Source: Acidimicrobiaceae bacterium | Lineage (GTDB): Bacteria > Actinomycetota > Acidimicrobiia > Acidimicrobiales > Ilumatobacteraceae | Reading direction: 5' to 3' | DNA: 64,000 bases | NCBI GenBank assembly: GCA_024641005.1 | Contig: JAHEDX010000011.1 | Coordinates: 1 to 64,000 of the forward strand | In this document: positions 58,374 through 62,116 of the stretch, piece by piece | How the letters are laid out: the number at the start of each line of letters is the position of its first letter | Numbering within the stretch: position 1 is the first letter of the stretch | Translations under genes and position numbers: made by a program | Notes under the pieces: model-generated | Told to the model about the DNA's origin: nothing | What the model saw: the letters and a program-made list of their open reading frames with translations, nothing else | Databases searched by the model: none

Positions 58374-59639
58374 GTGCCAGCGTTCCAGACCAGCCCAGGG
58401 ATGCGTGACATCCTCGCGCCCGAGTCGTCTCGCTGGCGGGCGTTCACCTCGGTGTTCGCAGACGTCGTCGAATCCGCCGGGTACGAGTTGATCGTTCCGC
58501 CCCTGATGGAGGACCTCGGCGTCTTCAGCCGCATCGGCGAGGCCACCGATGTGGTCACCAAGGAGATGTACGACTTCATCGACAAGGGTGATCGGCACGT
58601 GGCACTGCGGCCCGAGCAGACGGCCAGTGTCTGCCGCGCGTTCGTGCAACACCGGCCGGTGACTCCTTGGAAGGCCTGGTATTCCGGGCCCAACTTCCGC
58701 TACGAGAAGCCTCAACGTGGGCGCTACCGACAGTTCGACCAGGTCGGTATCGAGGTGCTCGGCGTCGACGATCCCTATCTCGATGTCGAGGTCATCGCGC
58801 TGGGCTGGGAGTTCTATCGTCGGCTCGGGCTGCGCCAGGTCGAACTACGGCTCAACTCCTTGGGCGAGCCTGCTGACCGCGCTCGGTACGTGGACGCGCT
58901 GCGTGCCCACTTCGAGGCGGCCGGCGACGACCTGACACCGCAGAGTCGCGACACACTCGCGAAGAACCCGTTGAGAGTGCTCGACTCGAAACGTGAGTCG
59001 GATGCCCGTTTCATCGAGTCGGCCCCCACGATCGACCAGTTCTGGAGCCCCGAGGCAGCGGCCCACTTCGCCACCGTGCGTGCCGGCCTCACCGAGCTCG
59101 GGGTCCCCTTCACGATCGACATGAAGCTGGTGCGCGGGCTCGACTACTACCGCCACACGACGTTCGAGTTCGCGGGCGGCACCCTCGACTCGGCCCAGAA
59201 CGCTCTCGGCGGAGGTGGTCGCTACGACGGCCTCGTCGAGGACCTGGGAGGCCCGGCGACGCCGGGCATCGGCTTTGCTCTCGGCGTCGACCGTACCCTG
59301 CTGGCCTGTGACGACGAGGGCGTCTTCGGCGCACCCGACAGTGCTGTCGCTGTATTCGTCGTCGACACGGCCGGGGGTGCTGCGGCGATGTCGATCACCG
59401 CCGAGTTGCGCTCTCAAGGGGTCAGCGCCGACCGCTCGTACGAGAACAGAAGCATGAAGGCCCAGATGAAGGCCGCCAATCGCAGCGGCGCCGAGTTCGC
59501 CGTGATCATCGGCACCGACGAACTCGACGCCGGCACCGCGATCGTCAAGCCGCTGCGTACGACGGGCGACCAGTCGACGGTCAATCGCTCCGACCTCCTC
59601 ACCGATCTCCGATCCCGACTCCAGGAAGCAACCTCATGA
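58374..59639 (+). CDS. hisS: Histidyl-tRNA synthetase
   Basis: GMRDILAPES, LRPEQTASVCRAFVQH, LVRGLDYYRHTTFEF, GGGGRYDGLVEDLGG. Confidence 0.95.
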   Translation: MPAFQTSPGMRDILAPESSRWRAFTSVFADVVESAGYELIVPPLMEDLGVFSRIGEATDVVTKEMYDFIDKGDRHVALRPEQTASVCRAFVQHRPVTPWKAWYSGPNFRYEKPQRGRYRQFDQVGIEVLGVDDPYLDVEVIALGWEFYRRLGLRQVELRLNSLGEPADRARYVDALRAHFEAAGDDLTPQSRDTLAKNPLRVLDSKRESDARFIESAPTIDQFWSPEAAAHFATVRAGLTELGVPFTIDMKLVRGLDYYRHTTFEFAGGTLDSAQNALGGGGRYDGLVEDLGGPATPGIGFALGVDRTLLACDDEGVFGAPDSAVAVFVVDTAGGAAAMSITAELRSQGVSADRSYENRSMKAQMKAANRSGAEFAVIIGTDELDAGTAIVKPLRTTGDQSTVNRSDLLTDLRSRLQEATS

Positions 59640-61378
59640 GCAGTACCTCAATGCGCACCCATCAGTGCGGCGAACTCCGTGCCGAGCACATCGGCCAGAC
59701 GGTCGCACTCACCGGTTGGGTAGGTCGGCGGCGGGAACACGGCGAGAAGCTCGCCTTCGTCGACGTTCGTGACCACACCGGAATCACTCAGTGCGTGGTG
59801 GACAACGACGTCGACGTGCGCTCCGAATACGTCGTACGGATCACCGGCGTCGTTCGCGCTCGCCCCGAGGGAACGGTCAACTCGACGCTGCCCACCGGTG
59901 AGGTCGAGGTCGGCGAGTGCCACGTCGAGGTGCTGCGAAGTGCGGTGGCGCCGCCGTTCCCGATCGATGCCCGCACCGATGACGTCGACGAGAACCTTCG
60001 TCTCAAGCATCGCTATCTCGATTTGCGTCGGGAGCGGATGCAGAAGAATCTCCGTGTGCGCGCGGCTGTCAACGGTGCGATCCGCGCCGCCATGGAACGC
60101 CAGGACTTCGTCGAGGTCGAGACGCCGATGTTGGTGCCGTCGACGCCCGAAGGCGCCCGCGAGTTCCTGGTCCCGTCGCGCAAGGAACCAGGATCGTTCT
60201 ATGCCCTGCCGCAGTCTCCACAGTTGTTCAAGCAGCTGTTGATGGTGGGTGGTGTCGATCGCTACTACCAGATCGCTCGCTGCTTGCGCGACGAAGATCT
60301 GCGTGCCGACCGCCAGTACGAGTTCATGCAGCTCGACATGGAGATGAGCTTCGTCACTCAAGACGATGTGCTCGACGCAGTCAGCGAAGCCGTGCTCGAC
60401 GCCGCCGAGGCGATCGCCGGCGACCGGCCGCCGGCGATCGAACACATCACCTGGCACGATGCCATGAACCGCTTCGGTATCGACAAGCCCGACCTCCGGT
60501 TCGGGATGGAACTGGTCGAGTTGACCGACGCCTTCGTTGCGACCGAGTTCAAGGCGTTCGCCGGTGCCGAGTCGATCAAGGGCATCCGAGTCCCGGCACG
60601 GGCGGACGAATTCGGTCGTAACCAACTCGACAAGCTGACCGACAAGGCGAAGTCGATCGGAGCGAAGGGTCTCGTCTGGATGAAGGTCAGCGCCGACGGC
60701 ATCGACAGCCCCGTCGCCAAATTCCTGTCCGAGGACGAGCTGGCGGAGGTCGGCTCGCGTCTCGAGGCCGAGCCGGGCGACCTGCTGTTGATCGTCGCCG
60801 ACGAATGGATGACCACGTGCGAGGTGCTCGGCACCCTGCGCAACGACCTCGGTCGACCGCCGGTGCACGAAGGCCCGCTCAAGTTCGTCTGGGTCGTCGA
60901 GTTCCCGCTGTTCGTCGGTGTCGACAAGGAGACGGGTCACCCCAAGCCAGGTCACCACCCGTTCACCACACCGCATCCCGACGACGTCGACAAGATGATC
61001 AGCGATCCGATGTCGGTCCGTTCGATTGCCTACGACCTCGTGCTCAACGGATGGGAGCTGGGGTCGGGCTCGATCCGTATCCACGAGCCCGAACTGCAAC
61101 GGCGTGTGTTCAAGGTTCTCGGCATCAGCGATGAGGAGGCCGCCCGCAAGTTCGGCTTCTTCCTCAATCCGTTCGACTACGGGGCACCGCCGCACGGCGG
61201 TTTCGGACTGGGCCTCGACCGGCTGGTCGCGATTCTGGCCGGCGAAGAGAACATCCGCGAGGTGATCGCTTTCCCGAAGACCCAGTCGGGCGCCGATCCG
61301 ATGACCAACTCGCCGATCGAAGGCGACCCCAAGCAGCTCCTCGAGCTCGGCCTGCGTGTGCTGCCGCGCGTCGACTGA
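59636..61378 (+). CDS. aspS: Aspartyl-tRNA synthetase
   Basis: HQCGELRAEHIGQTVALTGWVGRRREHGEKLAFVDVRD; RCLRDEDLRADRQYEFMQLDMEMSF; GLGLDRLVAILAGEENIREVIAFPK. Confidence 0.96.
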   Translation: MSSTSMRTHQCGELRAEHIGQTVALTGWVGRRREHGEKLAFVDVRDHTGITQCVVDNDVDVRSEYVVRITGVVRARPEGTVNSTLPTGEVEVGECHVEVLRSAVAPPFPIDARTDDVDENLRLKHRYLDLRRERMQKNLRVRAAVNGAIRAAMERQDFVEVETPMLVPSTPEGAREFLVPSRKEPGSFYALPQSPQLFKQLLMVGGVDRYYQIARCLRDEDLRADRQYEFMQLDMEMSFVTQDDVLDAVSEAVLDAAEAIAGDRPPAIEHITWHDAMNRFGIDKPDLRFGMELVELTDAFVATEFKAFAGAESIKGIRVPARADEFGRNQLDKLTDKAKSIGAKGLVWMKVSADGIDSPVAKFLSEDELAEVGSRLEAEPGDLLLIVADEWMTTCEVLGTLRNDLGRPPVHEGPLKFVWVVEFPLFVGVDKETGHPKPGHHPFTTPHPDDVDKMISDPMSVRSIAYDLVLNGWELGSGSIRIHEPELQRRVFKVLGISDEEAARKFGFFLNPFDYGAPPHGGFGLGLDRLVAILAGEENIREVIAFPKTQSGADPMTNSPIEGDPKQLLELGLRVLPRVD

Positions 61379-61387
61379 TCCCGCCGA

Positions 61388-61525
61388 GTAGCCAGGTCGG
61401 CGCTGCCGTGCGCGGCGTTGGCGGAGTCGTCGAGTAGCCAGGTCGGCGCTGCCGTGCGCGGCGTTGGCGGAGTCGTCGAGTAGCCAGGTCGGCGCTGCCG
61501 TGCGCGGCGTTGGCGGAGTCGTCGA
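61388..61525 (+). repeat. Three perfect tandem copies of a 46-bp unit, each with an 11-bp hairpin on the + strand RNA
   Basis: GTAGCCAGGTCGGCGCTGCCGTGCGCGGCGTTGGCGGAGTCGTCGA at 61388-61433, 61434-61479 and 61480-61525, identical in all three copies. Confidence 0.95.
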
Positions 61526-61606
61526 GGGCTACCGGCGCGATCGCATGCGTTGGTGCGCGGCGGCCGATGTCACTGGTTCGTCACAGACTGGCCGTAAGGT
61601 GACGTC

Positions 61607-62116
61607 ATGTTGGCTGCGCCGCTCGATCTCGGGATCGACCTCAATATGTGGCCGTGGATCTGGCTGGGCACGGCGGTGGTGTTCGCCCTCGTCGAGCTGA
61701 TCCTGGTCGGGGGGTCGTTCATCATCCTCCCCTTCGCCGTCTCCGCGTTCATCGCCGCGATCCTGGCGTTCTACGACGTCGCGATCGAGGTCCAGTGGGC
61801 GGTGTTCGTGTTCGGCGGCGCGCTCCTGTTCGTGGTGATGTATCGGTGGGCGCAGCGGTTCATGAAGCAGAACACGATGGCGCCGGGAGTCGGTGCCGAC
61901 CGCTTGGTCGGCCTCATCGCGATCGTCACCCGCGAGATCGTTCCCCACGACACCGAGCGAGCTGGCCGAGTCAACATCGATGGTGAGGTCTGGGGGGTGA
62001 CCGACAGCGATCTGCGCCTGGCGGTCGGCAGCAAGGTTCGCGTGATCGCGATGAAGGGCACTCGTGTCGTGGTCGTCCCGCTCGATGAAGATTCCGCCGT
62101 GGGCGGAGAGGAGTAG
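61607..62116 (+). CDS. Short NfeD-like protein (no ClpP-like domain)
   Basis: LGTAVVFALVELILVGGSFIILPFAVSAFIAAILAFYDVAIEVQWAVFVFGGALLFVVMYR + C-terminal OB-fold-like region; next to SPFH gene. Confidence 0.82.
   Translation: MLAAPLDLGIDLNMWPWIWLGTAVVFALVELILVGGSFIILPFAVSAFIAAILAFYDVAIEVQWAVFVFGGALLFVVMYRWAQRFMKQNTMAPGVGADRLVGLIAIVTREIVPHDTERAGRVNIDGEVWGVTDSDLRLAVGSKVRVIAMKGTRVVVVPLDEDSAVGGEE

Follow-up and report, generated by a model that had tools for sequence, protein, structure and literature searches.

In the spacer between aspS and nfeD a 46-bp unit stands three times in a row without a single difference, and these copies are most probably (a probability of about 0.86) a young, locus-specific and otherwise ordinary intergenic minisatellite that was made by slippage and is tolerated between two transcription units. 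The basis for this reading is the perfect repetition, the uniqueness of the unit, its lack of conservation and of excess folding, its non-coding position and the presence of other arrays in the genus. The observation made in an earlier note on this DNA is confirmed, and its interpretation is partly supported.

The tandem array and its flanking genes

Positions 61388-61525 read as exactly 3 x 46 bp with zero mismatches, as the earlier note had stated, and TRF agreed with this (period 46, 3.1 copies, 100% matches, score 284). The true extent of the repeat is slightly greater, 61385-61526, comprising 3 x 46 bp plus 4 bp (CGAG), and the CGAG sequences at 61385-61388 and 61523-61526 form a microhomology that bounds the duplicated segment. 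Since three perfect copies are impossible by chance, the array must be the product of duplication. TRF found no other long perfect array within the window, by which we mean the whole 64-kb stretch of DNA analysed. The copy number is that of a draft assembly of 175 contigs, from a species represented by one genome.

The array adjoins aspS, beginning 6 nt past its TGA stop codon (61376-61378), and the C-terminus of AspS aligns to its end with relatives. A coding repeat was rejected because the period of 46 is no multiple of three, and the earlier view of the repeats as non-coding also agrees with their intergenic position and with the lack of any called gene over them. Downstream, TAAGGT-N6-ATG was confirmed ahead of nfeD, where it had been read as a promoter belonging to that gene: in an alignment, six members of the genus share a TGTC-N..-CGT-N..-TANNGTG block with the nfeD ATG closely after, the TANNGT just before the ATG being conserved in all six. 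As this block starts some 35-40 bp downstream of the array end, the array leaves the nfeD promoter uninterrupted and, as had been proposed, lies between two transcription units, with aspS ending at 61378 and the conserved promoter further on. We also noted that 61562-61609 has the outline, common to the six genus members, of a conserved leaderless-type promoter with a repeated GTCAC motif (TGTCAC...TTCGTCAC...TAAGGT-N6-ATG), in which the repeated motif could serve as an operator or as a -35 region. The features of the region are listed in Table 1.

Table 1. Features of the aspS-nfeD region, with positions in the window.
Feature	Position	Strand	Basis
aspS (aspartyl-tRNA synthetase), upstream of the array	59636..61378	+	Pfam tRNA-synt_2, GAD, OB
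Tandem array, three identical 46-bp units plus 4-bp partial unit CGAG	61385..61526	.	TRF and sequence
CGAG, left edge of the array	61385..61388	+	Read from sequence
Unit 1, predicted 11-bp stem at 61396-61422	61388..61433	+	Sequence; fold not above shuffles
Unit 2, identical	61434..61479	+	Sequence
Unit 3, identical	61480..61525	+	Sequence
Conserved nfeD promoter block ending TAAGGT, outside the array	61562..61600	+	Alignment, six genus members
nfeD (NfeD-like membrane protein), downstream of the array	61607..62116	+	Pfam NfeD C-terminal domain; orthologues in genus

Folding of the unit and the array against chance

The stem described in the earlier note is present in each unit: GUCGGCGCUGC can pair with GCGGCGUUGGC around a CGUGC loop over 11 bp, comprising seven Watson-Crick and four G-U pairs. 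A single unit has a minimum free energy of -18.3 kcal/mol on the + strand and -13.1 kcal/mol on the - strand, so the asymmetry in favour of the + strand that had been claimed is real. However, it can be seen from dinucleotide shuffles, which average -19.5 on the + strand (z for the unit +0.46) and -12.5 on the - strand (z -0.27), that the shuffled strands differ about equally, and the asymmetry is therefore an effect of base composition. When the whole array was compared with its shuffles, z was -0.65 and +0.31 for the two strands. Its minimum-energy structure is formed by long-range pairing between copies (-73.3 kcal/mol), and three local hairpins, at -18.1 each, would total about -54 kcal/mol and be weaker.

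Background rates taken from sampled stretches of the organism's own genome led to the same view. Among 4000 random genomic 46-mers, 13% fold as well on the given strand, 21% do so on either strand and 20% show an equal strand asymmetry, and the + strand of the window alone has 18 sites that could form 11-bp stems if G-U pairs are counted. We conclude that the hairpin is within chance for its composition, so that the statement that each unit encodes one is true but unremarkable. The 80 nt after aspS ranked 168th for folding (z +0.62) among 206 sampled gene 3' ends, all of them followed by 100 nt or more of non-coding sequence, the genes having been called crudely from open frame and GC3; true 3' hairpins at other ends in this genome have z values from -4 to -9. 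An outer pairing around the last copy, of GTAGCC with GGCTAC (61527-61532), was also considered and was not above shuffles (z -0.51). Rfam gave no family, the only match being to an animal microRNA, which scored 16.4 bits where the cut-off is 61, and a promoter and terminator pattern scan came up empty, with no terminator-like site.

Distribution of the unit and of other repeats in the genus

A search for the 46-mer across the genome and its relatives, suggested as a check in the earlier note, returned no other full copy anywhere. In the 4.1-Mb source genome the next matches were pieces of about 14-33 bp (E at least 0.02), and in 60 relatives there were short partial matches only, which fell in different genomes with no tandem copies listed (the best match covered 36 bases at E 2.7e-5). 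The exact 27-bp hairpin core was absent from viral contigs and from a genome collection of 84,980 species, in which records of the source genome were possibly left out, and plasmid and phage searches gave no match to the unit. Neither the 60 relatives nor the genome collection contained a second strain of the species.

Among the genomes compared, the nearest relatives of the source genome are Ilumatobacter, and AspS is 90% identical in an uncultured Ilumatobacter MAG (CALFRK010000114.1). Among the loci read, aspS and nfeD are adjacent only in the source genome and in relative G003, whose spacer is unrelated in sequence, contains no single-copy ancestor of the unit and instead carries a long inverted repeat, GTTGGGAGTTGTGCC...GGCACAACTCCCAAC. 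The other relatives read have varied genes and sequences after aspS, with differing 3' flanks, and none of the nfeD orthologues read has the unit upstream. As a separate observation, the G003 spacer is flanked by a split version of a palindrome, GTTGTGCCAGGCACAAC, that has some 17-18 exact occurrences in each of the genus relatives G003 and G009, and more with one mismatch; it is absent from the source genome.

Other arrays were surveyed as perfect repeats whose period was at least 20 and no multiple of three and which did not evidently fall inside a gene, the gene calls for these counts being made from open frame and GC3 only. Two arrays in 857 kb sampled from the source genome fit this description, namely the 46-bp array and a perfect 65 bp x 2.2 array (L219:7668-7807; C95:27668-27807) that is flanked by an MFS transporter gene and by the Aldolase_II domain encoded in the next gene, which is class II aldolase-like. 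Five perfect or near-perfect arrays with units of 26, 38, 40, 71 and 101 bp, among which the 38-bp array is perfect over 2.9 copies, occupy gaps between called genes in 400 kb of G001, a single-contig complete genome of the same genus; 400 kb sampled from G009 gave none. The units of the other arrays in the source genome and in G001 are unrelated to the 46-mer, as is typical of minisatellites that are each private to their locus.

Three of the non-coding arrays in G001 (L227:2294-2404, L221:12868-12967 and L221:5635-5707) share CGGGTC(A/G)GGTGTC, in some cases with an inverse copy nearby, which suggests that tandem duplications in that genome are seeded by a dispersed palindrome. Inverted repeats of the form CGTTCTGTTCAGC-N26-GCTGAACAGAACG, whose arms are always offset by 39 bp, make up a family dispersed in the source genome (for example at C5:1468-1519, C7:15771-15822, C11:7122-7173, C85:52573-52624 and C174:20362-20413). 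A search for the arms gave 37 matches there and a reversed control gave none. Some copies lie directly past stop codons and are among the strongest 3' hairpins of the genome, and the family looks like a REP/MITE-type element. The many dispersed strong palindromes that define REP/BIME elements fit this family better than they fit the 46-bp array, which is at a single locus and has an imperfect stem.

Origin of the array and competing explanations

The properties of the array are those of a minisatellite, in that near-identical units within the range of about 10-100 bp stand head to tail (3.1 copies, period 46, 100%) outside coding sequence and without keeping frame. We envisage that a 46-bp piece of the unconstrained aspS-nfeD spacer was duplicated twice. 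In a first step, slippage between CGAG sites 46 bp apart, most likely during replication, would have duplicated the spacer segment, and a third copy could then have been added by further slippage or by unequal exchange; the G+C-rich self-pairing of the unit perhaps aided slippage. The identity of the copies suggests a recent origin. The array would be tolerated because of its position, past the aspS stop codon and ahead of the nfeD promoter, and its effect on either gene is probably slight, if there is one at all. Counted against this reading is that such arrays are uncommon in the source genome (two per 857 kb).

Bacterial intergenic minisatellites of the VNTR type, as used for MLVA loci, are likewise perfect head-to-tail repeats of tens of bp in gene gaps, with units private to a locus and probably made by slippage. 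The best-known actinobacterial case is the mycobacterial interspersed repetitive units (MIRUs), whose unit length of 46-101 bp is similar to the 46 bp found here. The MIRU-VNTR loci of Mycobacterium tuberculosis are also mostly intergenic (PMC3635867). MIRUs are, however, an interspersed family present at many loci, and the 46-bp unit occurs at one locus only in 4.1 Mb; as it is not dispersed, it cannot be counted among them. In the literature searched there was no report on tandem repeats in Ilumatobacter.

A different explanation is that the units form a hairpin cluster that acts as an intrinsic terminator lacking a U-tract, or as a 3'-end stabiliser of aspS mRNA, multiplied for dosage. The array begins 6 nt past the stop codon, inside the 80-nt zone in which hairpin-cluster terminators have been reported (PMC8355165), stem-loop 3' ends without a U-tract have been reported in Streptomyces (PMC8269248), and the stem of a single unit is worth -18 kcal/mol; like the hairpin-cluster or I-shaped terminators of G+C-rich bacteria, the array offers several predicted post-stop stems and no U-tract. 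However, the hairpin of an intrinsic terminator should be more stable than composition predicts, and neither the unit (z +0.46) nor the array (z -0.65) is. Local hairpins would also lose to the pairing between copies, the aspS 3' end folds far less well than genuine 3' hairpins elsewhere in this genome, the pattern scan gave no terminator-like site and the array sequence is not conserved, making this explanation very unlikely. The same results (folding not above shuffles, the rank of 168 in 206, no relative that keeps the sequence) speak against the roles put forward in the earlier note, those of stabiliser, attenuator or protein-binding RNA array, although a sequence-specific protein-binding site may be compatible with the lack of excess folding. 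We regard a lineage-specific RNA array of variable copy number in the aspS 3' UTR, in which the number of hairpins would tune aspS mRNA stability or readthrough into nfeD, as more improbable still. A Rho-utilisation site was also considered and rejected, the + strand unit being G-rich (21 G, 13 C, 8 T and 4 A) and not C-rich and G-poor.

The repeat might also be an artefact, with the real genome carrying one unit or some other number, since the assembly is a draft and resolving two perfect 46-bp shifts would take k-mers or reads of more than about 96 bp. Assemblers, however, usually collapse such repeats rather than expand them, and the comparable 38-bp array in G001 stands in a single contig; we place the likelihood of an artefact between those of the terminator and the variable RNA array. 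Least probable of all is that the DNA binds a regulator of the nfeD promoter as an operator tuned by copy number. The position upstream of the conserved promoter block would suit such a function, but a spacing of 46 bp does not correspond to an integral number of helical turns, and the unit is missing ahead of all nfeD orthologues read and has no further genomic copies.

For work on G+C-rich genomes, the case of the 46-bp array illustrates that G-U-rich stems favouring one strand arise from composition alone, and shuffle tests are advisable. The array itself is of little importance beyond showing a young minisatellite in clean form, in an actinobacterial genus that has been little studied; if its copy number varies, it could be used as a VNTR typing marker.
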